In this document: in pieces, positions 9,126 to 64,000 of the stretch
How positions within the stretch are numbered: the stretch's first letter is position 1
Layout of the letters: each line of letters begins with the position of its first letter
The notes under the pieces: generated by a model
Told to the model about the DNA's origin: nothing
What the model saw: only the letters and a program-made list of their open reading frames with translations
Database searches by the model: none
Program-made: the position numbers and the translations under genes
Assembly: GCA_029931535.1 (NCBI GenBank)
Contig: JAQPZY010001561.1
Span: 2,802,501-2,866,500, forward strand
Reading direction: 5' to 3'
DNA from: Margaritifera margaritifera
Taxonomy: Eukaryota > Mollusca > Bivalvia > Unionida > Margaritiferidae
DNA length: 64,000 bases

Positions 9126-9759
9126 TTACATAATGGCAATGGTAGACGGACATCCTTTTTATGGGATACATGGATGGCCCTTTAAGGGACGTTGGGGGAG
9201 ATATTTTGTGTTAACAAAGCTATTTAACAAAGATGACACATCTTCACTCTGTGCTGACGAATACTTCTTCTGATCAGTGTTCCAAGTACCAAAAAGGTTT
9301 TTAAAGAGTCTTATTTCTCGATGTAAACGCGCCTTGCAAATACCATTGTCTCTGTTATATGTTTGATGATCCACTTTGCCATATTGTACACAGTGTAGAC
9401 TGTATCGAAGGGCATGCTCAAGATGGTAGTCAAGCAGACTTCACAAAGCCACGTGTTATTTCTTAGGAAAAGACTTCTTTGATTTAGGCGGTCGAACACT
9501 TATATTCATGTTCAAAATAATCATATAGATAGTAGCAGAAATCAAGATACGTCTTATTTATAAAAATCGTGCTTTATTTGAGTGTAGTATGTGCATAGTG
9601 TTAAGCTTAATCTTTTCTGACTCTCAATGGGAGAAGGCATGTGATATGTTATGATGACAACCACTCGTACTGACATGACAACCACTCGTACTTACAAACA
9701 AACACGCATAGCCCACTCTTACAAAACAATAATCACCTGTTTCATCGACCTAATATTTC
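9126..9759. other. Unassigned spacer upstream of the polymerase relic
   Basis: No recognisable gene. It could contain the extreme N-terminal coding part of the Polinton polymerase in decayed form, but I could not trace it further left than about 9760. Confidence 0.35.
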
Positions 9760-12690
9760 CAGACGGAAAAAAAAATTCACGCGTTTCATCACCAAAGCCA
9801 TGTTGATACTATTACCAATTTAAAAGGATTTATCGAATACTCTTACTATTGCGAAACTGTGACTCAGGATTCAACAACCAGGATCAACATTTACATTGTG
9901 AAGAAAGATGTGGTCATAGCTTGGCGTTGAGTTATTGTGTTTAAGAGGGAAAATGATTCCGTTTACCACATGCTACGCCGATTAGTAAGTCATCCTTGTT
10001 ACAGTAAACATATAATGAAACAGTTCCAACAGAAGAAAAGCGCTTGTAATTTACTGAAAGTGTGTCAACAGTGTGAACATACTCTTCGTTCTAATTCGAG
10101 AGACTTTCACTTTGTCCAGGACAGAAACGATGTCTTATTTGTCATCACGTCGTCAACTTCGATCATCAGTGTTACATTCAGCGTTCCGTCACCGAACAAT
10201 ACGATGGGTTGGACATCGACAGCAAGATGAAAAAGAAACGAGATCATCCAGTAGACTTAATCTTTTCGGATTCCGAATGTTCTCAAGTTACTGACATTCA
10301 CACTTTAAGATGTGTGTTGCCCATCGAGCTTGCAGTAAATGTTTCTGCGAATTTCTGTTCTATGATGGTATTATTGGAACCGTAGCGCAATCTTGGGCGG
10401 ACGAAAAAATATATTTAGTGGACCCTGGATTTTGCTCATAGGGTCTTGGACCTTACTAACGACTGGAAACAAAGTCAGATTGACATCGTCACGGCAACTG
10501 TAAAAAATACACTACAGTGATCGATCACACTACGTCTGGGTACGACGGACAGTTTCTCCTGAAACATTTTGCAGAAAATTGAACCAAATACACACAAGTG
10601 AGTATGAATGGAGCTAAAATCATTTATATGAAAACAGGAACAGTACAGTTCAAAGATTCCACGAGTTGCTTGGATATGTCTTTCAACACGAGCCAAAAAA
10701 ACGTTTAGAATGACTGAAATGTCTAAAGAATATTGACCTCACTATTTCAACACAGAGGAAAATCAACACGTTTTGCTACCCCTTTTGCCTGCAGCACAAC
10801 ATTGCAATGCAGAAAATACGCGAGCGGAGTAGCGGTAGGCTTTCTACACATGATGCTAGACTCACTCTTCTGACAACTTTGACATTTAAAAGGAAATATT
10901 CCACTATTGTCAATTTGATGCCGATATTCTACGACGTTATTGTGCAAACATTTTGAGGACAGTGGTATCGATCCATTGAGGGAAGCGTCTACTATTGCCA
11001 AAGCCTGTGGATTGTTGTACCGAAAGAATTTCATGCCCGGTAAAATTCGAGTTATTGATACCACCCTAAACGTAGCAATCGGTGAGTCTTAGGAATTCGG
11101 CACAAGCTTTGCTTTGGTTACATTACTCATGTTTGACTTCAGACAAGTGGATTCCAGAATCCAGAAATGCTAGAGAAAAGAAGATTGGTCCTTACTCGGT
11201 TGATGGTTATGATTTGAAACAATCCACAGATTGTGTACGAATTTTTAAATGGATGTTTTGTGGCACGCATGTGGAATGTGTTGTCCTAACCGATAACTGA
11301 AAAATCCACATACCGGATTTACCAGGAAAATTCTGTACGAAAGAACTTACCAAGGGCACCAGAACTTAGGAAGTCCGATGATACCGAGTGGTGGAAATGT
11401 GGGAGCATGAACACGACCGACTTATAAAACGGACCCCGAATTTTTCATCAAAGATTACACGCTACAGTGTGTTTGGAGGACTGACCAACTCCACACGGCT
11501 GTTGTACGATGCAGACCTATCCCAAGAAGAACAAATCAAGTATATCGATGCGTGTGTATTGTACCAGTGGGTCTGTAATCAAGTATATCGATGCGTGTGT
11601 TTTGTACCAGTGGGTCTGTAATCAAGTATATCGATGCGTGTGTATTGTACCAGTGGGTCTGTAGTCAAGTATATCGATGCGTTTGTACCAGTGGGTCTGT
11701 AATCAAGTATATCGATGCGTGTGTATTGTACTAGTGGGTCTGAAATCAAGTATATCGATGCGTGTGTATTGTACCAGTGGGTCTGTAATGAAGTACATCG
11801 ATGCGTGTGTATTGTACCAGTGGGTCTGTAGTCACGTATATCGATGCGTGTGTATTGTACCAGTGGGTCCGTAGTCACGTATATCGATGCGTGTGTATTG
11901 TACCAGTGGGTCTATAATCAAGTATATCGATGCGTGTGTATTGTACTAGTGGGTCTGTAGTCAAATATATCGATGCGTGTGTATTGTACCAGTGGGTCTG
12001 TAATCAAGTATATCGATGCGTGTGTATTTACCAGTGGGTCTGTAATCAAGTATATCGATGCGTGTGTATTGTACCAGTGGGTCTGTAATCAAGTATATCG
12101 ATGCGTGTGTACCAGTGGGTCTGTAATCAAGTATATGGATGCGTGTGTATTGTATCAGTGGGTCTGTAGTCAAGTATATCGATGCGTGTGTATTGTACCA
12201 GTGGGTCTGTAATGAAGTATATCGATGCGTGTGTATTGTACCAGTGGGTCTGTGATGAAGTATACCGATGCGTGTGTATTGTACCAGTGGGTCTGTAGTC
12301 AAGTATATCGATGCGTGTGTATTGTACCAGTGGGTCTGTAATCAAATATATCGATGCGTGTGTATTTTACCAGTGGGTCTCTAATCAAGTATATGGATGC
12401 GTGTGTACCAGTGGGTCTGTAATCAAGTCTATCGATGCATGTATATTGTACCAGTGGGTCTGTAATGAAGTATATCGATGCGTGTGTATTGTACCAGTGG
12501 ATCTGTAGATATGCTAGATTCCCGACAAAACACCTTGAAAGTCTTACAGAGCATATTGTAGTGGTAAGCATTATCAATACGAAGAACTAATCAAATGCAA
12601 AGTTATTCCACCCACAGACTTCTACCATCTCCTGTTGCCTCATCACTGCAACGGAAAATTCATATTTGCATATACCCCCAACCCCCGATT
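9760..12690 (+). pseudogene. Polinton/Maverick protein-primed family B DNA polymerase, decayed
   Basis: A relic of the large self-encoded DNA polymerase of Polinton/Maverick elements. It can be followed across all three frames. FHHQSHVDTITNLKGFIEYS and SYYCETCDSGF (about 9785-9880) and HQCYIQ near 10170 match the Cys/His-rich N-terminal region. FSDSECSQ (10263-10287) corresponds to the D-x-E of exonuclease motif I. SGYDGQFLLKHFAEN (10534-10580) corresponds to exonuclease motif II. Then follow DSGIDPLREASTIAKACG (about 10955-11010), REKKIGPYSVDGYD (about 11170-11214), VEMWEHEHDRLIK (11391-11429), VFGGLTNSTRLLYD and KYIDACVLYQWV (11538-11573), which is polymerase motif A (D-x2-S-L-Y-P in the family). 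After the tandem array, reading resumes with CRYARFPTKHLESLTEH (12497-12550) and fades by about 12690. At least six frame breaks are present, and motif C was not found. No other Polinton gene or terminal repeat is visible nearby. Confidence 0.8.
11534..12508 (+). repeat. Minisatellite, 43-bp unit, about 23 copies, grown from polymerase motif A
   Basis: Units start AATCAAGTATATCGATGCGT and continue GTGTATTGTACCAGTGGGTC then TGT. Starts at 11534, 11577 and 11620 fix the period at 43 bp. A few units are shortened by 6-7 bp (TATTGTACC missing or reduced). The first unit is in frame with the upstream polymerase and encodes KYIDACVLYQWVCN, and the last unit leads straight into the downstream polymerase residues RYARFPTKH. 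The array is therefore an in-place expansion of the motif A codons and not an insertion of foreign satellite. Since 43 is not a multiple of three, the frame rotates at every unit. Confidence 0.95.
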
Positions 12691-20111: not shown

Positions 20112-20620
20112 TCATTTAGGGGGAATTTGTTTGTAATGATAGGTATAACTTGTCTGTTGTGTAGGTTAGGGGGAATTCGTTTGTAATGTTAGGTATAACT
20201 TGTCTGTTGTGTAGGTTAGGGGGAATTTGTTTGTAATGTTAGGTATAACTTGTCTGTTGTGTAGGTTAGGGGGAATTTGTTTGTAATGTTAGGTATAACT
20301 TGTCTGTTGTGTACGTTAGGGAGAATTTGTTTGTAATGTTAGGTATAACTTGTCTGTTGTGTAGGTTAGGGGGAATTTGTTTGTAATGTTAGGTATAACT
20401 TGTCTGTTGTGTACGTTAGGGAGAATTTGTTTGTAATGTTAGGTATAACTTGTCTGTTGTGTAGGTTAGGGGGAATTTGTTTGTAATGTTAGGTATAACT
20501 TGTCTGTTGTGTACGTTAGGGAGAATTTGTTTGTAATGTTAGGTATAACTTGTCTGTTGTATACGTTAGGGGGAATTTGCTTGTAATGTTAGGGATAACT
20601 TGTCTATTGTGTACGTTTTA
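20112..20620. repeat. Minisatellite, 50-bp unit, about 10 copies
   Basis: The unit is GTTAGGGGGAATTTGTTTGT then AATGTTAGGTATAACTTGTC then TGTTGTGTAG, with only a few substitutions between copies (GTAGGTTAGGGG versus GTACGTTAGGGA). The variant order suggests duplication of blocks of two units. Confidence 0.95.
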
Positions 20621-24884: not shown

Positions 24885-25325
24885 TTATAGTATTGGTATT
24901 ATATATTGCTATAGAGTATTTATAGTTATTGCTATAAAGTAATTATAGTTATTGCTATAGAGTAATTATAGTTATTGCTATAGAGTATTTATAGTTATTG
25001 CTATAGAGTAATTATGGTTATTGCTATAGAGTAATTATAGTTATTGCTATAGAGTAATTATAGTTATTGCTATAGAGTAATTATAGTTATTGCTATAGAG
25101 TTATTATAGTTATTGCTATAGAGTATTTATAGTTATTGCTATAGAGTAATTATAGTTATTGCTATAGAGTAATTATAGTTATTGCTATAGAGTAATTATA
25201 GTTATTGCTATAGAGTATTTATAGTTATTGCTATAGAGTAATTATAGTTATTGCTATAAAGTAATTATAGTTATTGCTATAAAGTAATTATAGTTATTGC
25301 TATAGAGTAATTATAGTTTTTGCTA
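24885..25325. repeat. Minisatellite, 23-bp unit, about 19 copies
   Basis: The unit is TATAGTTATTGCTATAGAG plus TAAT, with TATT and AAAG variants. Each unit contains the near-palindrome CTATAG. Confidence 0.95.
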
Positions 25326-25479
25326 TTATTCAGTACGCTTATATACGTAATGTAATCCTTTTACGTAAATTTACTTGCTCATTTACATACAAGAATTTTT
25401 TTGCAAATGGCATGCTTTACTTTTATTTCAATACTGGGAATCCTTACTTTTAAGACTAACATTTCTTAATTGGCTAATA

Positions 25480-26130: not shown

Positions 26131-26605
26131 CATTTGAGGTACGACGATGGATGAGATTGAGAGATACGACCAACCTACTTTCGGATACATTACCTGCAAA
26201 AGTTCAGACTGAACTTCAGGCTCTTTTGCATTGTATATATCACACATTACCCTTTCAAACATTGGATTCAGAATGATAAATTGCGCATGATCGCGGGGAT
26301 TGGGCCAACTTCTTACTCTGGGTCTTATTATATTCTATTAAATTGCTATTTATCATCAATGAAAAGATCTCTTGTCATCTGCTTTTATTCCTGGTTGCAA
26401 CATTATTCCCTTATAACGCAGCAGATTCTGGATATACATACTATTTTATTGACAAAACATGAAATTTGGTACAAATTAAGACATGAGCAGAATGAAAACT
26501 TCTAGATATACAAATAGATATGCAGTATAGTAATTGTAATAAAATGTCAAGAAAACGTGCATTGATAAAAAAAAAAATGTATCGCTAAGAAACCAACTAA
26601 ATTGT
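26131..26605. other. Unassigned spacer
   Basis: No signal recognised. It may include the 3' untranslated end of the RTE fragment. Confidence 0.35.
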
Positions 26606-27107
26606 CTCGTCTCTATGCCTATTTATGGCCAAATCAATCATACGTGTCTATTCATATTTATGGCCAAATGAATCATACGTGTCTATGCCTATTTATGGCC
26701 ATATCAATCATACGTGTCTATGCATATTTATGGCCAAATCAATCATACGTGTCTATTATTATTTATGGCCATATCAATCATACGTGTCTATGCATATTTA
26801 TGGCCAAATCAATCATACGTGTCTATTCATATTTATGGCCATATCAATCATACATGTCTATGCATATTTATGTCCATATCAATCATACATGTCTATTCAT
26901 ATTTATGGCCAAATCAATCATACGTGTCTATTCATATTTATGGCCATATCAATCATACGTGTCTATTCATATATATATATGGCCATATCAATCATACGTG
27001 TCTATTCATATTTATGTCCAAATCAATCATACGTGTCTATTCATATTTATGTCCAAATCAATCATACGTGTCTCTTCATATTTATTGCGAAATCAATCAT
27101 ACGTGGC
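26606..27107. repeat. Minisatellite, 36-bp unit, about 14 copies
   Basis: The unit is CATATTTATGGCCAAATCAA then TCATACGTGTCTATT, alternating GGCCAAATC and GGCCATATC. One copy has an AT insertion (26969-26980). The unit is 12 codons and stop-free, so all three forward frames stay open for 134-190 codons; these are not genes. Confidence 0.95.
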
Positions 27108-28127
27108 ATCATGTTTAAAAAATGTATTATGAAACAAGCTCTTTTGGCAAAGCTTTACCTGAATTTAAACATTCGCATACTTCCGATAGAGTCATGAAGT
27201 TCTCATATTGTGATACGCAGACCTAATAGTTATCAACACTTAACGGCACACTTGAATTTGAATCATGCCTACTTGTAAGAGTAGATGTTTATTTTCGATT
27301 GGAATGGTTTCTCTTCTAAAGATTTTAACATTGATTTACCTGTACATTTTATTCTGCATTATATAGCCACTATTGTGCTTATGTACCGTTAAGCCCTATG
27401 CATGTGTATATATCAACAAGTAGACATTCTTGTATCTGTTTGATCTCACAGGAGTCGACTAAGTAGCAATTTAATTATTGTACGGATTTTAGGACGAGTT
27501 GTATTATCCACCAAATTATATTTTAATATGTTTAGTTTGTCCAAATATGCGCTACTGTGTACCCTAGGACTGATTGATGTGTGTCTCCAACTTACATTAA
27601 CATGATTTAATTCTCGATGAGTGTTGTTTGGTGGTGCAAAGCATTTCCTCGTTGTTGCAACCATTTATCGCTTTCAATTTGTGTTCACTCGGTCAGAAGA
27701 TCAAATTCTACTGAGCAAAGGAAAATTGAAGCTAATTTGAGGATAGTAATTGCTTTAAGCTGTTTAATCATAATACGCGTATTCATCATCATCATAGTTA
27801 TGATTGTTAAATACAAAACAAGCATGTGCATTTGACAAGTTCTTTTGGGGAAAGTATTTTAGCACGAATCTAGATCATTACGGAATAGTTTTGTGACTAC
27901 CACATTTGCGTCAATTGTAAGATCATTTTTTGAAGTTGGTTAAGCTATAGATAATATAATAAATGCTGGTGTATAGTAGATTGTCATGGGTTGTAAGGGC
28001 TACACATTCTCATATTTGATCGCTAACAGCGATCCAAAAGAAATTTACCTGGTGTCTAAACCCCATTAATTATATTTAAAGACGAGAAAGTCACTTCAGA
28101 TATATGTATTTTCTTAAAGAACACTTG
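27108..28127. other. Unassigned AT-rich region
   Basis: No gene, tandem array or known element recognised. Confidence 0.4.
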
Positions 28128-28914: not shown

Positions 28915-29788
28915 TAAGATGACTTTTCTGTGTGTTGATCAAATTTTCATATTCCTTAGCACAGCAGCATTTGGAGACAATGTTACTGTATCTATGAAAT
29001 AGGATTGTCGATCATCCAATTTCATTTCGTGTCCTTTGGTTTTCTGTATCTCTACATCCGTCGTGTAGACTTTCGTCTTTCTTGAGACAGGTTTATAGGA
29101 TGACTCTAGACATGCAGTGCAAAATGTCATAGGAAAAAACAAATTGTCCCAATGATATACTAACTAAAGTATCAATAAAGCAGAGTACTGATAAAGTAGA
29201 ATACTTTCAAGAAAGTCATGGAAACAGAAGAGGCTGTCTGAAGACAAGTCGGTAAATTCTAATTATCCATACAAACGGAATTTACGAGGTCACCACCTTC
29301 CTCTATATTGCGTGGTTATATTGATCGATCTTATAGTTTAAATTAAGTCCTGCATTTGTTTGAGCACTTCAGTTCCCATTTTATGATGTCCGGATGAAAA
29401 TGAATTTGTTATTGCTTCCAGGCAACCATAAAATGGATTTATCTATTTCATTACAAAGACTAATTATTGACATCTGTAGTTGAAATATTTTGGAATATTA
29501 ATAAGAAATCATCTTAACAACGTTCCCTTATACCAGCACAAACAGGCATACATAATTTTTCTTTGATATGTGACCGCGGTTCGTCATCAATTTGGATAAT
29601 CAACATCCATTGACCGTAATGATAGTGCAATCAGAATTTATGTAGAATAGACACGTAGCTTTAAAGGAAGATATCGTCCAAAGCAGGTGGTTTGATATCC
29701 TAGCACACATTGTAAGAGGTTTCTGAAATAAATAGATTATATACATGTATTCCAACACTGTGATATCATGGTAATCGCGCAGAAAGTC
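28915..29788. other. Unassigned spacer
   Basis: No signal recognised. Confidence 0.4.
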
Positions 29789-30013
29789 TAGGACCATGAC
29801 TATTAGTCATGGTCCTGCTTGTTTCCTGTAATTCTAACACCATGACTATTTGGCATGGCCAAGCTTGCTGCCTGTAACTCTAAGAATATGATTATTCGGC
29901 ATGTTCTAGCTTGCTTCCTGTAATTCTAAGACCATGACTATTATCATGGTTCTGTTTGCTTCTTGTATTTCTAAGACCATGACTATTCCGCAGGGTCCTG
30001 CTTGCCTCCTGTT
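29789..30013. repeat. Palindrome-bearing array, about 56-bp unit x4
   Basis: Units read CTAAGACCATGACTATT, then an inverse CATGGTCCTGCTTG, then CTTCCTGTAATT. In the first unit GACCATGACTATTAGTCATGGTC is an almost perfect hairpin. Later units have diverged arms (ATCATGGTTC, CGCAGGGTCC). Confidence 0.8.
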
Positions 30014-34593: not shown

Positions 34594-34773
34594 TTCACTA
34601 AAGAAACTACATTATATTATGTTAAAGATTATGTACTATCTGATATTTCTTCAGAATTAATTTGTTTCCTATCTGTCACATTAATGTACGCTATGACTGA
34701 TAGATTGATATACTTAAAAACTTAGGAATATTGATGTGAATGACGAATGATAAGTTTCTCTCAATTCTTGTTC

Positions 34774-35095
34774 CTAATCACTGCATACACACGTTTTCTG
34801 TTTGCATCTCAATCACTGCATACACACGTTTTCTGTTTGCATCCCAATCACTGCATATACACATTGTCTGTTTGGTTCCCAATCACTGCATATACATGTT
34901 TTCTGTTTGCATCCCAATCACTGCATATGCACGTTTTCTGTTTGCATCCCAATCACTGCATATACACATTGTATGTTTGCATCCCAATCACTGCATATAC
35001 ATGTTTTCTGTTTGCATTCCAATCACTGCATATACACGTTTTCTGTTTGCATCCCAATCACTGCATATACACCTTTCTGTTTGCATCCTAAAAGT
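34774..35095. repeat. Minisatellite, 35-bp unit, about 9 copies
   Basis: The unit is AATCACTGCATATACACGTT then TTCTGTTTGCATCCC. Starts at 34776 and 34811 fix the period. The overlapping periodic open frames in all three forward frames are array artefacts. Confidence 0.95.
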
Positions 35096-36696: not shown

Positions 36697-36818
36697 TTAG
36701 CTAAATTGCTAAAGACAGAGGACTACAGCAACACATGAATTCACGCCTAGGTCGGATTGGCGGTTGTCCAGTTTGAAATTAAAATCGAGGTCGTATAATC
36801 AGTCATAAGAATTTACCA

Positions 36819-37213
36819 ATATTGACAAATACATTCATTTTAATATTGAAAGGTCTATTTATTTTAATATTGAAAAGTATATTCATTTTAATATTGACAA
36901 ATACATTCATTTTAATATTGAAAGTTATAATCATTCTAATATTGAAAAGTATATTTATTTTAATATTGAAAACTATATTCATTTTAATATTGACAAATAC
37001 GTTCATTTTAATATTGAAAAGTATAATCATTCTAATAATGAAAAGTATATTCATTTTAATATTGAAAAGTACATTGATTTTAATATGAAAAAGTATGTTC
37101 ATTCTAATATTGAAAAGTATATTCATTTTAATTTTGAAAAATACTTTCATTTTGATATTGAAAAGTGATTTCATTTTAATATTGAAAAAGTATATTCATT
37201 TTAATATTGACGA
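36819..37213. repeat. Minisatellite, 24-bp unit, about 16 copies
   Basis: The unit is AATATTGAAAAGTATATTCA plus TTTT, with GACAAATACATTC variants. The unit is eight codons and stop-free on both strands, giving spurious periodic frames. Confidence 0.94.
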
Positions 37214-45910: not shown

Positions 45911-46198
45911 ATGGCATCTAATGTTCAGAATTTCATTTTAAAACCTACCCAGGAGGGGTTAGAGTGTATGAGAAAGGATGAGTTGTTCGAACTTGCCAGA
46001 AAATACAGTCTGTCTGAGGCAAAAGCATCATTGACAAAACAGGAGATAAAGATTATTTTAATTCAATATTTAGTAGGAAAGGGAATTTTTGATAGTAGTG
46101 CTTTAAGTTTGAAGAGAAAGCCTGTATCTGGTTCTGACAGGAAATAAAGGGAATTAGAGTTAAAGAACCAGATGGATTTAGAATTGGCAAAGCTTCAG

Positions 46199-46281
<83 letters not shown>

Positions 46282-46666
46282 GCAAATACAAATGCAGATG
46301 CAGATGCAAAGAGAAGAAAGGGAAATGCAATTTAAATTAAGAGAATTAGAACTGGCAAACAGAGCACACTCCACTCCTTTAAACACAAGTTCAGGTTTTG
46401 ATGTTACTAGATATATTAGGTTAGTACCCCCTTTTCAGGAAAAAGAAGTAGATAAATACTTTCTTCATTTCGAGAAAATTGCTGAAAACTTGAAATGGCC
46501 CAGAGAGCATTGGACTTTGTTATTACAATGTATACTTATTGGCAAAGCTCGTGAAGTAGACACCTCACTGTCAGTACAACAAAGCACTGAGTATGATGTG
46601 CTTAAGGAGTACATCTTGAAAGCTTATGGTACCAGAAGCATATCGACAAAGGTTTTGGAATTGTAG
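45911..46666 (+). pseudogene. gag: gag of element A, with in-frame stop and frameshift
   Basis: The start MASNVQNFILKPTQEGLECM is followed by a helix-rich N-terminal region to SGSDRK, then TAA at 46145-46147. The same frame resumes as RELELKNQMDLELAKLQIQ, an Arg-Glu tract encoded by a GA microsatellite (46201-46275), then QIQMQMQMQREEREMQFKL (coiled-coil-like). The capsid region follows, with YIRLVPPFQEKEVDKYFLHF and ENLKWPREHWTLLLQ. A 5-nt deletion at about 46628 relative to element B shifts the frame to GTRSISTKVLEL and a stop at 46666. The capsid continues in another frame at 46626-46970. The same TAA is present in element B, so it predates the separation of the two copies. Confidence 0.88.
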
Positions 46667-46970
46667 AAAAGAAACTGGACAAACCTATGTCGAACTTGCA
46701 TGGGAAAAAGAACGACTATTTGATAGGTGGTGCTCAGCCAAGAAAGTTGATCAAGATTATGATAACCTCAGACAGCTCGTATTAATTGAAGAGTTCAAGA
46801 GGTGCATCCATAGTGATGCTAAAACCTATCTTCTGGCTCTCTTGCCCATACCTCGAAATCCTCTTCAGGCTAAACTGTATGGTCCTTATACCGTTGAAAA
46901 GAAAGTAAATGACTTAAATTATATCATTCACACTCCTGGAGACGGAAACAGAAACAACTTTGTCATATAA
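46626..46970 (+). pseudogene. Deletion fusion: SCAN-like capsid part joined to integrase C-terminal module
   Basis: Residues 1 to about 65 (VPEAYRQRFWNCRKETGQTY, VDQDYDNLRQLVLIEEFKRC, IHSD) are the SCAN-like capsid segment of gag. The frame then jumps directly into LLALLPIPRNPLQAKLYGPY and TVEKKVNDLNYIIHTPG, the GPY-type C-terminal module of integrase. Element B has about 2 kb between these two parts (zinc knuckle, protease, integrase core), so this frame results from an internal deletion at about 46820-46840. The fusion happens to be in frame for 115 codons. It is a by-product of deletion and unlikely to be functional. Confidence 0.85.
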
Positions 46971-48525
46971 ATATGTTAAAGGAATATTTTGACAGAGATA
47001 GCCCAGCTAATTATTCTGTTAATTTAGTTGTACCTGTCCCACACAGTGAAGATATCAACGATGGAGTACAATCAGACTATAGTGACTCTGGTATAACCAA
47101 TCTTCGGAATTCATAAAATATTGAACAATCTAGACCAGAAACTTTCACATTACAACAACAGGAAAGAAATGAACTAAAACAGCTATTACATGACTATGAG
47201 CATTTGTTTCCTGATGTTCCAACATGAACAAGTAAAATTTATCATGACGTTGACATTGTAGATTCTGCGCCTGTAAAACAGCATCCTTATAGGATGAATC
47301 CTCTCAAACAGAACTATTTGAAGAAAGAAATTCCGTATTTACTGGAGAATGATTTCATAGAACCAAGTAAAAGTAACTGGAGTTCACCTTGTATTCTTGT
47401 TCCAAAGCCAGATAATACATTCCGTGTGTGTACTGACTATAGAAAAGTCAACAGTGTCACGAAAACAGATTCATTTCCAATCCCAAGAATGGACGATTGC
47501 ATTGATACAATTGGAAATGCGAAATATGTCACCAAGTTTGACCTTTTAAAAGGATTCTGGCAAATTCCACTGACGGAAAGGGCAAAAGAAATTTCAGCAT
47601 TTGTAACTCCAGATGGACTTTATCAATATAAAGTCATGCCGTTTGGAATGAAAAATTCGCCTGCAACGTTTCAACGTCTGATGAACATGGTAACATCTCA
47701 TCTTGATAATTGTGACGCTTATATCGATGACGTCATTATCTACAACAACACCTGGGAAGATCATTTGAAAACCATTCAAAAATTCTTCGATCGACTCAGC
47801 GATGCGAATCTGACAATTAATTTGAGTAAAAGTGAGTTTTGCCGTGCTTGTGTCACATTTTTAGGACATATTGTGGGACAAGGTCAAGTTAAACCTATAG
47901 AAGCTAAGGTCAAAGCTATCTCTGAATTTCAAGTACCAATTTGTAAAAAGCAACTGATGCGATTTCTAGGTATGGCTGGATATTATCGGAAATTTTGTTC
48001 CAATTTTTCCAAAATCGCTGAACCTTTGACAGGTTTATTGAGTAAGAAAACCAAATTTCATTGGTCTGACAAGTGTCAGGAGACTTTTGACAAGTTAAAG
48101 GCCATGCTTAAGAATGACCAGTTCTTTCTGCACCAAATTTCAGCCAATCATTTAAATTATCTGTTGACGCAAGTGATGTAGGGGTTGGTGGAGTATTGAT
48201 TCAGGAAGACAAAAGTGGCGTGGATCACCCTGTGTGTTATTTTTCTAAAAAATAAACAAGCACCAGAAAAATTATTCCACAATTGAGAAGGAATGTTTGG
48301 CTTTGATATTAGCTTTACAGCATTTTGAAGTGTATGTTACCTACCTCAGCTCTTTCTCCAATTATTGTGTACAGTGATCACAATCCCCTTACTTTCATCA
48401 ACAAAATGAAAGATAAAAATCGGAGATTGTTGAGATGGAGTTTAATATTGCAGGAATATAACATTGACATCAGACACATCAGGGGAAAAGACAATGTGAT
48501 TGCAGATGCACTCTCACGTGCATAG
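46971..48525 (+). pseudogene. pol: pol of element A: linker, reverse transcriptase, RNase H
   Basis: 46971-47290 is the decayed integrase-RT linker (VPVPHSEDINDG and a TGA within the segment before the RT). The open reverse transcriptase 47294-48181 shows NWSSPCILVPKPDNTFRVC, CTDYRKVNSVTKTDSFPIPR, FDLLKGFWQIPLT, MPFGMKNSPATFQRLM and the catalytic YIDD at 47720-47731, then FLGHIVGQGQVKP and RFLGMAGYYRKFCSNFS. A 1-nt loss near 48115 ends the frame. RNase H continues in other frames (VDASDVGVGGVLIQED, IEKECLALILALQHFEVY, VYSDHNPLTFINKMKDKN) and ends HIRGKDNVIADALSRA at 48525. A further 1-nt loss (about 48252) and a 4-nt duplication (about 48342) are present. Pol ends here, with no integrase downstream. 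Confidence 0.93.
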
Positions 48526-52889: not shown

Positions 52890-53800
52890 GGCTTGTTTGG
52901 CAGTTTGTAAATAGTAATTGCAAGGGTTAATTACAAGATAGGTAGCAAGCTAAATATCTACATACAGTTTGTAAAGAGTAATGGCAAGGGTTAATTGCAA
53001 AATAGGTAGCAAGCTAGATATATGCATACAGTTTGTAAAGAGTAATTGCAAGGGTTAATTACCAGATAGGTAGCAAGCTAGATATATGTATGCAGTTTGT
53101 AAAGAGTAATTGCAAGGGTTAATTACCAGATAGGTAGCAAGCTAGATATATGTATACAGTTTGTAAAGAGTAATTGCAAGGGTTAATTACCAGATAGGTA
53201 GCAAGCTAGATATATGGATACAGTTTGTAAAGAGTAATTGCAAGGGTTAATTACCAGATAGGTAGCAAGCTAGATATATGTATACAGTTTGTAAAGAGTA
53301 ATTGCAAGGGTTAATTACCAGATAGGTAGCAAGCTAGATATATGCATACAGTTTGTAAAGAGTAATTGCAAGGGTTAATTACCAGATAGGTAGCAAGCTA
53401 GATATATGCAGACAGTTTGTAAAGAGTAATTGCAAGGGTTAATTACCAGATAGGTAGCAAGCTAGATATATGCAGACAGTTTGTAAAGAGTAATGGCAAG
53501 GGTTAATTACCAGATAGGTAGCAAGCTAGATATATGCAGACAGTTTGTAAAGAGTAATTGCAAGGGTTAATTACCAGATAGGTAGCAAGCTAGATATATG
53601 TATACAGTTTGTAAAGAGTAATTGCAAGGGTTAATTACCAGATAGGTAGCAAGCTAGATATATGTATACAGTTTGTAAAGAGTAATTGCAATGGTTAATT
53701 ACCAGATAGGTAGCAAGCTAGATATATGTATACAGTTTGTAAAGAGTAATTGCAAGGGTTAATTACAAGATATGTAGCAAGCTACATATATATAAACAGT
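52890..53800. repeat. Minisatellite, 64-bp unit, about 14 copies
   Basis: The unit is CAGTTTGTAAAGAGTAATTG then CAAGGGTTAATTACCAGATA then GGTAGCAAGCTAGATATATG plus TATA. CAGTTT starts at 53157 and 53221 fix the period. Outermost copies are the most diverged (ATTACAAGATA, ATCTACATA), and the centre is nearly uniform. Confidence 0.96.
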
Positions 53801-53849
53801 TTGGTTGGAAAATTGGAAGAAAAATGCCTCTGTAACTGTTTATGTATGT

Positions 53850-55085
53850 ATGTAGAAGTGTTTTACGGCCCTTCAACACAATAGTGGCTATATAGTGCCA
53901 ACTAAATGTAAAGTTCGAACAAAATTTAAATGGATTGCACGAAAATTTTGGAAGATAAACCCTTGCAAATAGATGTAAACATGAGGTACAACACGATTAA
54001 ATATAAAAACCCAAAGATGTTAAAATTCTTAAAACATATGGTACAAAATTGTTATATAAACTGCATTTCATTAAAAAGTCCAAGATTTTCTCTGGTGGTA
54101 TATTATCATACAGTTTCATCATGCAGTTCACGTCAAAATACATCTGTCTAAGAGGGTGGAAATCCATTTAATCAACAAGAATATGCTCCACTGTCAGTGT
54201 ACACTGTCACTGTATGCACTCTGGTAGAGGTTCAAGTTTCAGGATGTATACATGAGTCAGGTATGTGTCCGATATGTGATCGGCCAATACCACCACATCT
54301 CTCCGATTTGTTATATACGAGGGATGCCACTCTTCAATAGTGGCTTTGATATTCTTAAGCTTGTTTGTGCAGTTTTCATTCCACATATTTGCCAAGTACG
54401 ACAAACAGGCTGATTTATATAATATCTGAAGTCACTATATGGAATCGTGTGTTTGGAACGGGTGTGCGCATGGCTGCTTTATTTGCTTTATCTGCCATTT
54501 CATTACCCTTTATACCAATAAGACTAGGCAGCCATCAGTATAGAATACTTTATATCAATAAGACTAGGCAGCCATCAGTATAGAATACTTTATATCGATA
54601 AGAGTAGGCAGCCATCAGTATAGAATACTTTATATCAATAAGACTAGGCAGCCATCGGTATATAATACTTTATATCCATAAGACTAGGCAGCCATCAGTA
54701 TAGAATACTTTATATCAATAAGAGTAGGCAGCCATCAGTATAGAATACTTTTCCCAGAATGCATGATAACGTCACATTTCTGTAATATCTGCGATATTAA
54801 CGGTTCGTCAGATTTAAGGTTTAGCAAGGCTGTCACTGTGGAAAGGAAATCCGAAAAGATGATGAAATGTGTTTTTTGAGGTTGCAATGTAGTTCAAAAG
54901 TTTTAGTAAGGCTGTAATGTCTGATGTAAACACTGAGGCTGTATGCGGTTAATGGCTCGAGATAGTGCATTGGGATGTTGCACTGACAGCTCCAACTTTG
55001 TCTCCATTTTTCGAACAGTCTATATACAGTGGCGTATGGCTACGATAGAAGGCTCTGTTTTTAATGAATTTAATCTGTAATAAGA
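53850..55085 (-). pseudogene. LINE 3' half (RNase H to 3' end), part of a split element
   Basis: Read leftwards from 55085: FIKNRAFYRSHTPLYIDCSK then NGDKVGAVSATSQC is the start of a LINE-encoded RNase H with its first Asp. ALLKLLNYIATSKNTFHHLF follows. After a tandem array (54511-54752) comes IGIKGNEMADKANKAA (54475-54520). Then YLANMWNENCTNKLKNIKA, HISDTYLTHVYILKLEP and CQCTLTVEHILVD (about 54180-54390), the usual C-terminal cluster. The 3' untranslated end reaches a CATA-rich tail at about 53850 (GCCGTAAAACACTTCTACAT on the minus strand). Its missing 5' half is probably the plus-strand piece at 55110-56580. Confidence 0.8.
54511..54752 (-). repeat. Tandem array, 40-bp unit x6, inside a LINE RNase H region
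   Basis: The plus-strand unit is AGACTAGGCAGCCATCAGTA then TAGAATACTTTATATCAATA. On the minus strand the innermost copy encodes the residues just before IGIKGNEMADK, where RNase H domains have a W-x-P-S-H-x-G-I stretch, so the array was seeded by LINE coding sequence. Starts at 54521, 54561, 54601, 54641, 54681 and 54721. Confidence 0.88.
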
Positions 55086-59422: not shown

Positions 59423-60770
59423 CTATGCACGTGAGAGTGCATCTGCAATCACATTGTCTTTTCCCCTGATGTGTCTGATGTCAATGTTATATTCCTGCAA
59501 TATTAAACTCCATCTCAACAATCTCCGATTTTTATCTTTCATTTTGTTGATGAAAGTAAGGGGATTGTGATCACTGTATACAATAATTAAGGGGATTGTG
59601 ATCACTGTATACAATAATTGGAGAAAGAGCTGAGGTAACATAAACTTCAAAATGCTTTAAAGCCAATATCAAAGCCAAACATTCCTTCTCAATTGTGGAA
59701 TAATTTTTCTGGTGCTTGTTTAGTTTTTTAGAAAAATAACACACAGGGTGATCCACAATACATTTGTCTTCCTGAATCAATACTCCACCGACCCCTATAT
59801 CACTAACATCAACAGATAATTTAAATGATTGGCTGAAATTTGGTGCAGAAAGAACTGGTGCATTCTCAAGCATGGCCTTTAACTTGTCAAAAGATTCCTG
59901 ACACTTGTCAGACCAATGAAATTTGGTTTTCTTACTCAATAAACCTGTCAAAGGTTCAGCGATTTTGGAAAAATTGGAACAAAATTTCCGATAATATCCA
60001 GCCATACCTAGAAATCGCATCAGTTGCTTTTTACAAATTGGTACTTGAAATTCAGAGATAGCTTTGACCTTAGCTTCTATAGGTTTAACTTGACCTTGTC
60101 CCACAATATGTCCTAAAAATGTGACACAAGCATGGCAAAACTCACTTTTACTCAAATTAATTGTCAGATTTGCATCGCTGAGTCGATCAAAGAATTTTCG
60201 AATGGTTTCCAAATGATCTTCCCAGGTGTTGTTGTAGATAATGACGTCATCGATATAAGCGTCACAATTATCAGGATCAGATGTTATCATGTTCATCAGA
60301 CGTTGAAACGTTGCAGGCGAATTTTTCATTCCAAACGGCATGACTTTATATTGATAAAGTCCATCTGGAGTTACAAATGCTGAAATTTCTTTTGCCCTTT
60401 CCGTCAGTGGAATTTGCCAGAATCCTTTTAAAAGGTCAAACTTGGTGACATATTTCGCATTTCCAATTGTATCAATGCAATCGTCCATTCTTGGGATTGG
60501 AAATGAATCAATTTTGGTGACACTGTTGACTTTTCTATAGTCAGTACACATACGGAACGTATTATCTGGCTTGGGGAAAAGAATACATGGTGAACTTCAG
60601 TTACTTTTACTTGGTTCTATGAAATCATTCTCCAGTAAATACGGAATTTCTTTCTTCAAATAGTTCTGTTTGAGAGGATTCATCCTATAAAGATGCTGTT
60701 TTACAGGCGCAGAATCTACAATGTCAACGTCATGATAAATTTTACTTGTTCGTGTTGGAACATCAGGAAC
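59423..60770 (-). pseudogene. pol: pol of element B: reverse transcriptase and RNase H
   Basis: A TGA at 60597-60599 interrupts the segment where element A reads SNWSSPCILVPKP. From 60551 the frame is open: CTDYRKVNSVTKIDSFPIPR, FDLLKGFWQIPLT, MPFGMKNSPATFQRLM and the catalytic YIDD at 60246-60257, then FLGHIVGQGQVKP, RFLGMAGYYRKFCSNFS and LLSKKTKFHWSDKC. RNase H follows in the same frame with KLSVDVSDIGVGGVLIQEDK, YFSKKLNKHQKNYSTIEKEC and VYSDHNPL. A 31-bp tandem duplication at about 59559-59620 then breaks the frame. The remaining RNase H (FINKMKDKNRRLLRWSL to NVIADALSRA) lies in 59423-59650. Pol ends with A-D-A-L-S-R-A, with no integrase after it. Confidence 0.94.
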
Positions 60771-62525
60771 AAGTGCTCATAGTCATGTAATAGCTGTTTT
60801 AGTTCATTTCTTTCCTGTTGTTGTAGATGTGAAAGTTTCTGGTCTAGATTCTTCAAGATTTCTGAATTCCGAAGATTGGTTATACCAGAGTCACTATAGT
60901 CTGATTGTATTCCATCATTGATATCTTCACTGTGTGGGACAGGTAAAACTAAATTAACTGAATAATTAGCTGCCCTATCTCTGTCAAAATATTCCTTTAA
61001 CATATTTATATGACAAAGTTGTTTCTGTTTCCATCTCCCAGGAGTGTTAATGATATAACTTAAGTCATTTACTTTTTTTTCAACGGTATAAGGACCATAA
61101 AATTTAGCCTGAAGAGGATTCTGAGGTATGGGCAAGAGAGCCAGAACTTTGTCACCAGGTTTAAAACTCCCTTCCTGTGTATTTTTATCATACCTTAATT
61201 TCATTTTTGACTGGGTAGTGTGAAGATTAGTCCTTGCTACTTCACAGGCCTTTGACAACTTGTATTTGAAATCAGATACATAATCCAGAAGATTAATCTT
61301 TGAATCTTCGTTTGAAAGAAGTTTCTCTTTCAATCATTTCAATAGTCCACGGACAGTATGACCAAAAACTAGTTCAAAGGGACTTAAATCCAACGACTCT
61401 TGAACTGATTCCATAACAGCAAACAACAACAAATGAACACCTTCATCCCAATCCTTTTCTGTATCAAAGCAATATGATCGAATCATATTCTTCAAAGTTT
61501 GATGAAATCTTTCCAAAGCACCTTGACTTTTAGGGTGATAGGCAGAAGATTTAAACTGTTGGATGCCCAATTCATGCATAACTTGTTGGAAAATTAAAGA
61601 CATAAAATTTGACCCTTGATCCGACTGGACAGATTTGGGAAGACCAACAAGTGTAAAAACACTTCACCAAAGCTTTCACAATAGTTTTAGTTTTTATATT
61701 TCTCAGAGGAATTGCCTCTGGAAACCTTGTAGATGCACACATAATGGTCAACAAGTATTGGTTGCCTGACTTGGTTTTAGGTAAAGGACCAACACAGTGT
61801 ACCATTATTCTACTACATGGTTCATCAAATGCAGGGATAGGTTGAAAATAAGCCTTAGGTATCTTCTGATTGGGTTTTCCTACCATATGACAAGTGTGAC
61901 AAGATCTGCAGTATTTAGAAACATCACTTTTGAGTTTCGGCCAATAAAAATGATTCAAGATCTTGTGATAAGTCTTACGGACTCCTAAATGACCAGCCAA
62001 AGGAGTTTCATGGGCTAAATTAAGAATTTCCTGTCGATATGACTTAGGAACAACAATTTGATAGCTCACTAACCACTCGTCACCAGCGGGTACCTCAGGT
62101 GGTCTCCATTTCCTCATAAGGACCCCATTTTTCACAACGTAACACACTGGAACTTGTGTGGCTTCAGTTTCACTAATAGCCCTCTGAAACAAACAAGATA
62201 TCTCGGGATCTTGCTCCTGTTCAACGACAAGGGATTGTCGTTTGTCACCCTGATTAGAACAAAGAGAATGAGTTGCCAAAAGAGGATCACTGTGATCAAT
62301 ACCGTTTGATTGATCAATACCTGAGGAAAAAGTGACCTCATCAAAAGACTGACCAATACATGTGTCAGCTAAAGGAATAATATCCTGATCAACATCACTC
62401 TCAAGAGCTCTTTTTGCCATAGCTCTAGTAACTGAACAAGTAGGGTAGAAATCAGGGATTTCGATTTCGACAGGATCAACTTTCTGATCCAAACAAGGCT
62501 TGTCAGTTACAAGTGGATTAACCAC
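60771..62525 (-). pseudogene. pol: Integrase of element B, located upstream of reverse transcriptase
   Basis: The open stretch 62525-61572 carries the zinc-binding module (HETPLAGHLGVRKTYHKILN, FYWPKLKSDVSKYCRSCHTC: His172, His179, Cys209, Cys212 of this stretch). The core follows with IMVHCVGPLPKTKSGNQYLL, where the first catalytic Asp expected before C-V-G-P-L is His (CAC, 61797-61799). A 1-nt gain in an A/T run at 61655-61659 shifts the frame. The second Asp and the Glu region continue in 61603-61334 (LGIQQFKSSAYHPKSQGALE, RFHQTLKNM). A TGA at 61334-61336 follows. The C-terminal module (KPGDKVLALLPIPQNPLQAK, FYGPYTVEKKVNDLSYIINT) is in 61333-60716. A 1-nt loss near 60767 closes this frame before the reverse transcriptase. 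Confidence 0.93.
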
Positions 62526-62529
62526 AACC

Positions 62530-62850
62530 TTATCTCCAGCTAGGTCATTGCCTAGTAATCAATGAACACCATCTATGGGTAAAGAAGTCACTGCCCCAAC
62601 AGTTAAGGGTCTGGAAACTAAGTCTGATGCCATATTTACACAATGAAGAGGAACATTTACAAAGCCACACTCTACTCCCTGAACAAGAACACTTTCACTT
62701 GAAGAAGACTCCTTAGACAAAGGCAAAGTACCTGGTAATAAAAGACTCTGAGAAGTTACAGTGTCCCTTACTATTTTAATTGGGATAGGCTTGGCAGAAT
62801 CACCAATAAGTGATATAGAACCTTCTGACATAAGCCTCCAAAATAGAGTC
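62530..62850 (-). pseudogene. pol: Retropepsin-like protease of element B, active site altered
   Basis: SEGSISLIGDSAKPIPIKIV leads into RDTVTSQSLLLPG at about 62730-62768. In retropepsins this position is D-T/S-G. Here the glycine codon is GTA (62757-62759), giving D-T-V. Further on, LLGNDLAGDKV after a TGA at 62559-62561 matches the second conserved region of retropepsins (hydrophobic-L-G-x-D). So there is one substitution in the active-site triad and one nonsense codon. A frameshift near 62825 separates it from gag. Confidence 0.8.
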
Positions 62851-64000
62851 AGACTGGGGTTTGTTTGACCCAACAAATGTATTGCTTTCAATACAAGACC
62901 GTGACCTTGACCTCGTAGAAATAAGAGCATTCGGAAAAGCTCCGTCTTTAATCTGTTGCTTATTTTTCAACTTGAAGCAATCAGAAATAACGTGCCCTTT
63001 CATTTTACAATAAGTGCACGTAGGAAGAGATAAGGATTTCTGATCAGCCTTATCAGATGTTTGATTCCTAACAGTTGTGCTGTTGTGAAATTTGGAAGTA
63101 CTCGTATGAGATTGAAATGGTTTTTTTACCAGAAAACTGCTGAGAGCTTGACTTATTGCCAAGTGAAATTTTGTGAGTCAAGGAATACTCATCAGCCATA
63201 CGAGCAGCATTTTCCAAGGTTTCCACATTCTGCTCGTCACTATGGATGCACCTCGTGAACTCTTCATTTAATACGAACTGTCTGAGGTTATCATAATCTT
63301 GATCAACTTTCTTGGCTGAGCACCACCTATCAAATAGTCGTTCTTTTTCCCTTGCAAATTCGACATGAGTTTGTCCAGTGTCTTTTCTACAATTCCTAAA
63401 CCTTTGTCGATATGCCTCTGGTACCAACTCATAAGCTTTCAAGGTGTACTCCTTAACCACATCATAATCAGTGCTTTGTTGTACTGACAGTGAAGTGTAG
63501 ACTTCACGAGCTTTACCAATAAGTACACTTTGTAATAACAATATCCAATGCTCTCTGGGCCATTTCAAGTTTTCAGCAATTTTCTCGAAATGAAGAAAGT
63601 ATTTATCTACTTCTTTTTCCTGAAAAGGGGGTACTAACCTAATATATCTAGTAACATCAAAACCTGAACTTGCGTTTAAAGGAGTGGAGTGTGCTTCGTT
63701 TGCCAGTTCTAATTCTCTTAATTTAAATTGCATTTCCCTTTCTTCTCTTTGCATCTGCATCTGCATTTGTATTTGCCTCTCCTGTTTCTCTCTCTCTCTC
63801 TCTCCATCTGCCTCTCCTCTTTCTCTCTCTCCATCTGCATTTGCCTCTCTTCTTTCTCTCTCTCCATCTGCTTCTCTTCTTTTTCTCTCTCTCTCTCTCT
63901 CTCTCTGAATCTGAAGCTTTGCTAACTTTAAATCCATCTGGTTCTTTAACTCTAATTCCCTTTATTTCCTGTCAGAACCAGATACAGGCTTTCTCTTCAA
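62851..64000 (-). pseudogene. gag: gag of element B, 5' end outside window
   Basis: 63965-64000 encodes the end of the N-terminal gag region (as in A, SGSDRK), followed by the in-frame TAA at 63962-63964. From 63937 the frame is open: MDLKLAKLQIQ, an Arg/Glu-rich tract with inserted EADGERE blocks (not a pure GA run as in A), QIQMQMQMQREEREMQFKL, YIRLVPPFQEKEVDKYFLHF, LKWPREHWILLLQSVLIGKA. Then comes the SCAN-like capsid segment (VPEAYRQRFRNCRKDTGQTH, EKERLFDRWCSAKKVDQDYD, NLRQFVLNEEFTRCIHSDEQ). A 1-nt change in an A/T run at 63121-63127 shifts the frame. The zinc knuckle CTYCKMKGHVISDC (C-x2-C-x4-H-x4-C, 62977-63018) follows in the next frame. Confidence 0.92.

Follow-up and report, generated by a model that had tools for sequence, protein, structure and literature searches.

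The window, a 64,000-nucleotide stretch of Margaritifera margaritifera DNA, contains the remains of a DNA polymerase gene with a tandem array inside it. The features are listed below, in positions of the window.

9738..11533, forward strand: left remnant of a Polinton-type PolB gene, 5'-truncated, with stops and frame changes (blastn, tblastn)
11534..12507, forward strand: 43-bp minisatellite, very probably grown from PolB motif A codons, 23 units (TRF, wrap-around alignment, blastn)
11534..11576, forward strand: unit 1, identical to the consensus of the array and continuing the frame of the left remnant (IKYIDACVLYQWVC)
12464..12506, forward strand: unit 23, whose frame runs on into the right remnant (KYIDACVLYQWIC-RYARFP)
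12507..12667, forward strand: right remnant of the same PolB gene, 3'-truncated (blastn right block, tblastn)

TRF reports the array at 11534-12507 with a period of 43, 23.0 copies, 90% matches and a score of 1612. By wrap-around alignment it divides into 23 units, 19 of 43 bp, one of 42 bp (unit 12) and three of 38 bp (units 4, 14 and 21), with a 5-bp deletion common to units 14 and 21. The consensus of this alignment is identical to unit 1, and the extra base after unit 23, at 12507, matches the first base of a 24th unit. Base substitutions of the units against their own consensus amount to 3.3%. The initial annotation had counted about 23 copies of a 43-bp unit, and both methods agree with it, placing the end at 12507. 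With head-to-tail units in the 10-100 bp range at a defined locus, the array is a minisatellite.

The catalytic Asp codon GAT is present in 23 of 23 units. As the array has no reading frame, this retention is silent on function. The unit was at first placed at polymerase motif A and read as D-x2-S-L-Y-P; the site is right, but the motif is degenerate, the array reading D-A-C-V-L-Y-Q. The locus cannot encode a polymerase, since stops and frame changes already interrupt the left flank and the unit length of 43 is not divisible by 3. The array is most likely neutral, and we propose no function for it.

Relatives of the gene were collected from the 2.45 Gb assembly (1696 contigs). When it was searched in six frames with PF03175, 5572 first-look candidates came up, and the scoring of 75 of them yielded 150 matches; the window locus is absent from the matches to these scored candidates. 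We took the 20 best PF03175 matches as PolB loci, a choice that favours intact copies. Two relatives score 133 bits each against PF03175. The homologue panel consists of the best 120 of 2389 proteins.

In the frame of the polymerase, the left flank gives ...EQIKYIDACVLYQWVC. Unit 23 translates as (M)KYIDACVLYQWIC and runs directly into RYARFPTKHLESLTEHI of the right flank, so the passage of the last unit straight into RYARFP of the same polymerase, noticed at the outset, is confirmed in frame. The left remnant begins at 9738 in blastn alignments to two of the loci (L022 and L023), and reaches 11576 in those to the PolB loci. On the right, DNA homology stops at 12667 with 19 of the 20 loci and at 12658 with L003.

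The longest forward open frame of each of the 20 fetched loci was run against the window by tblastn. Sense alignments on either side of the array were obtained with ten of the 20, whereas L003 matches the left side only and three give no match. The remaining six give weak antisense matches; in these loci the gene is on the opposite strand, which made the forward frame an antisense one. The left alignments end at or near 11576 and the right ones begin between 12377 and 12450. When the flanks were searched apart, as one-sequence databases, the L018 frame matched with E 1e-36 on the left and 2e-15 on the right. Among 140 queries (the 120 homologues and the 20 locus frames, antisense frames included), 137 match the left flank, 129 the right and 129 both.

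A Pfam scan of 10 short broken pieces of the window gave no PF03175 match, and the identity of the polymerase therefore rests on the relatives. PolB homology on both sides of the array was thus recovered in register with the proteins and DNA of relatives, but not with the Pfam profile on the broken pieces. The same scan gave CobW_C_DAAF9 below the cut-off (E 0.0027), which we took as chance. No relative was confirmed among viral contigs with two pieces of the window, a degenerate DNA pattern had 0 matches in viral contigs, and a protein search with the left piece alone gave no match. A 26-residue match in Flavobacterium, from one window piece against prokaryote genomes, and three weak matches of an intact relative to solved structures were also put down to chance.

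All 20 PolB loci carry one uninterrupted unit at the site of the array. They read IKYIDVCSLYPWVC and then K(Y/H).RFP without a break; across the whole site, the reading is IKYIDVCSLYPWVCK(Y/H).RFPT(G/S)HPEI(L/I)T(E/K)HI in every one of them. As for the homologues, 119 of the best 120 are free of insertions in the interval from the sixth residue before the motif A Ser to the fourteenth after it, and one has two inserted residues; the Ser is kept in 120 of 120 and the Pro in 119.

In blastn, one and the same stretch of 43 nt in the relatives is matched by unit 1, as the continuation of the left flank, and by unit 23, which leads into the right flank. For this comparison the left query stopped with the last base of unit 1 and the right query began with the first base of unit 23, and each aligns up to its end. 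The overlap of the two on the relative is 43 nt in 18 of the 20 loci and 42 nt in L003 and L005. The uncut window is a fairer test, because the other queries were cut at unit ends. Against L018, it aligns on the left to 11578 (locus position 1619) and on the right from 12464 (locus position 1575), an overlap of 45 nt, that is, one unit and two letters. Since the relatives carry one unit there, the array is the gene's own motif A stretch multiplied, and the proposal that it grew in place and was not inserted is upheld by both ends aligning to the same 43 nt.

The genome was also searched with two units as the query; 4 candidates were scored, and the counts are lower bounds. At least 15 matches were returned, 12 in this array and 3 elsewhere (contigs C1519, C805 and C649), the latter with 87% identity over 45 bases. 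These three are single units within other decayed polymerase copies (L037, L038 and L039), in which TRF detected no array with a period near 43 bp. The unit in each is 6 of 43 positions away from the array consensus. The flanks of these copies have diverged more from the window (ungapped, 15-19 of 30 positions on the left and 23-35 of 60 on the right), as expected of copies picked by the unit alone. No second array is among the matches of this search, lower bounds as they are. A genome-wide satellite, which would have spoken against an origin in the gene, is rejected, the only units that this search matched outside the array being single ones in PolB remnants.

Polintons (Mavericks) carry a protein-primed family B DNA polymerase, a retroviral-type integrase with a chromodomain and an A32/FtsK-like packaging ATPase, together with capsid proteins, an adenovirus-like protease, terminal inverted repeats and a target-site duplication. 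We take the PF03175 homologues of molluscs and other animals to be PolB of this type, the same polymerase family as the remnant in the window. The intact relatives match PF03175, and the remnant aligns to them on both sides. The chromodomain integrase was found in relatives only, in an ORF of L041 with rve and Chromo domains; the rve integrase core is also present in L024, and matching sequence in L040 and L041. One relative has a short match to a packaging ATPase (L041:2381-3187 against Pox_A32, E 3.3e-8, above the cut-off but over 32 residues). No capsid or adenovirus-like protease was matched by Pfam in the scanned ORFs of L022-L024 and L041.

Thus, a chromodomain integrase and an A32-like ATPase lie beside PolB in relatives from this genome, whereas the window holds a polymerase fragment only, 9738-12667 (blastn, tblastn). 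Comparing the window with the regions neighbouring PolB in the relatives (tblastn, blastn) gave only PolB and a few weak, short matches, with none to their integrase ORFs. Among 537 pairs of inverted repeats in window 1-35000, the 25 longest are arms in AT repeats only. The PF03175 family and the neighbouring genes of the relatives (integrase, ATPase) support the assignment of the element to the Polintons/Mavericks, a reading made from sequence comparison.

Several of the relatives have other features in common. Copies (L022:1733-2251, L023:5043-5567 and L024:10-492) carry an ORF with a zinc knuckle (CCHC) on the strand opposite to PolB and, downstream of PolB, an ORF with a BIR domain, the inhibitor of apoptosis domain. 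The PolB matches of L020 and L021 (G000:C1295) start at 8306145 and 8313236, head to tail and 7091 bp apart. These two loci have 99.94% identity over 3243 nt and represent either a segmental duplication or Polintons in tandem. Near PolB, at L020:2589-2778, L021:2590-2779 and L023:2440-2600, there is also a 37-bp minisatellite, with a similar unit in all three. It lies about 5 kb upstream of the PolB match in two of the three and may travel with the element.

To place the growth of the array relative to the decay of the gene, we compared the unit with the relatives. Between the consensus unit and the 20 relatives there are differences at 11-13 of 43 positions; for the flanks, ungapped, the figures are 15-17 of 51 on the left and 17-20 of 60 on the right, so that the divergence of the unit is about equal to that of the flanks. 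With the three single-unit remnants added, there are 23 comparators, and fourteen positions of the unit differ from at least one of them. Positions 23, 25 and 34 have letters found in 0 of the 23 comparators and carried by 22, 19 and 23 of the 23 units, respectively; at position 25, three of the four remaining units have a deletion. Positions 23 and 25 fall in the Ser codon of S-L-Y-P and position 34 in the Pro codon. A change at position 33 that removes the Pro is present in 23 of 23 units and also in 2 of 23 comparators.

When the array grew, the gene was probably decaying or dead already, because the units share letters that the comparators lack. The initial annotation had put the growth after the death of the gene. 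That order is made probable by the letters in 19-23 of 23 units, but it falls short of proof: homogenisation, that is, exchange between units, could have spread the shared letters later and mimicked an order with the mutations first.

The observations are very probably explained by a decayed copy of a Polinton/Maverick PolB gene in which a 43-bp duplication at motif A grew in place to 23 units. The starting point would be a copy of a protein-primed DNA polymerase gene (PF03175 family) that was truncated and in decay. A 43-bp tandem duplication across the catalytic motif A codons would be the first step, and expansion in place to 23 units would have followed, with replication slippage and unequal exchange as the most likely route. 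The window is rich in tandem arrays (67 TRF entries, some overlapping), which makes it conceivable that a pre-existing 43-bp satellite was inserted into, or captured by, the gene; however, the unit is a stretch of polymerase that the relatives hold once at exactly the site of the array, and the two-unit genome search returned no other array. Insertion of a foreign satellite is rejected as hardly credible, the unit being polymerase sequence itself.

An older array, arisen in an ancestral element and inherited by the window copy at insertion, is improbable. The two-unit counts are lower bounds, and some letters of the unit are common to one to three of the three single-unit remnants and absent from the other 20 comparators; yet that search found no other multi-unit locus, the array disrupts the reading frame, and the mutations in motif A probably came first. 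Arrays are generally hard to assemble, and the length could in part be an artefact of a collapsed or expanded repeat. This is very improbable, since neighbouring units differ by a mean of 3.95 of 43 columns, gaps counted, with scattered variants, and copying by the assembler is unlikely to produce such units.

For the growth in place from motif A, the first duplication can be sought at the ends of the unit in the single-unit relatives. By eye, the two ends have only AA in common at a spacing of 43, AAAT (4 bp) at a spacing of 44 and AAATA (5 bp) at 39, with no direct repeat of 5-10 bp at the unit spacing. In the absence of such a repeat, a short slip or an end-joining duplication fits as the founding event.

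For the later steps, adjacent units are not more similar than distant ones (lag 1, p 0.68; best over lags 1-12, p 0.20), and stepwise slippage between neighbours is therefore not supported. Lags 7 and 10, each with p about 0.04, are not significant as higher-order structure over the 12 lags at that same overall p. The 5-bp deletion that units 14 and 21 share hints at block duplication. Our best guess is that the array grew by replication slippage, by unequal exchange or by both.

A bolder reading, which we consider possible but rather unlikely, is that the array is a nascent satellite caught before dispersal, with its founding site, single-unit sister copies and mutations from before the growth all readable in one genome. 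If so, the order of events could be reconstructed. Growth may then have been a burst, for example by rolling-circle or break-induced copying, and not stepwise slippage, as no gradient between neighbours is seen among the units.

The closest known system is CficCl-61-40 of Chenopodium (Belyayev et al., PMC7320549), described there as having 39-bp units and, as start monomer, a 41-bp piece of the CACTA transposase domain tnp2. Its arrays range from 8 to 94 monomers in one species, with 23.1 monomers in contig 431, and it is the most abundant satellite of the genomes of the genus. As here, a piece of about 40 bp of transposon coding sequence became the start monomer, in the same orientation and with a similar array size. 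The parents differ: CACTA tnp2 there, and here a Polinton PolB with many single-unit relatives. In Chenopodium, the array is described with its parent fragment attached, and the available portion of the paper does not mention a second flank, whereas here the start monomer is contiguous and homologous with transposon coding sequence at both ends, in register. Unlike the abundant CficCl-61-40, our unit was found in one array and as three single units in PolB remnants, both counts being lower bounds.

The available part of a review (PMC6947457) also lists minisatellites born inside Alu, B1, MaLR and Gmr9/GmOgre retroelements, and our array resembles these in that its short units arose within a transposable element. 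From Haber and Louis 1998, the review takes a model in which a first duplication is followed by growth through slippage or unequal crossing-over, starting from flanking repeats of 5-10 bp; the present case differs in having no such repeat at the unit spacing. Growth of arrays from transposon coding DNA is thus already known (PMC7320549), and ours is a clean new case. The initial annotation called an array with both flanks in register rare; it may be uncommon, but the process itself has been published (PMC7320549, PMC6947457). No minisatellite in a Polinton polymerase was found in the literature, judged on titles and abstract openings.

Where a tandem array came from is usually difficult to establish. 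In this case the parent is a conserved protein-coding site, so that 20 loci and 120 homologous proteins reveal both the ancestral state and the boundaries. The locus gives a good worked case of how a minisatellite starts, its unit length being indivisible by 3 and the microhomology at the unit spacing about 2 bp. It also lets the growth of an array be set against the decay of a gene. By itself, it alters no view of the mechanism.

Other repeats and open frames are present in the window. A 35-bp array of 14 units at 26569-27197 has two forward frames free of stops, of 187 and 198 codons. Further minisatellites, with units of 23-64 bp, were reported by TRF at 20116-20617, 24904-25326, 29787-30012, 34772-35088, 36818-37210, 52901-53803 and 54508-54751. 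Finally, long ORFs at 46148-48181 and 59571-63961 resemble, by eye, Gypsy-type reverse transcriptase and integrase.
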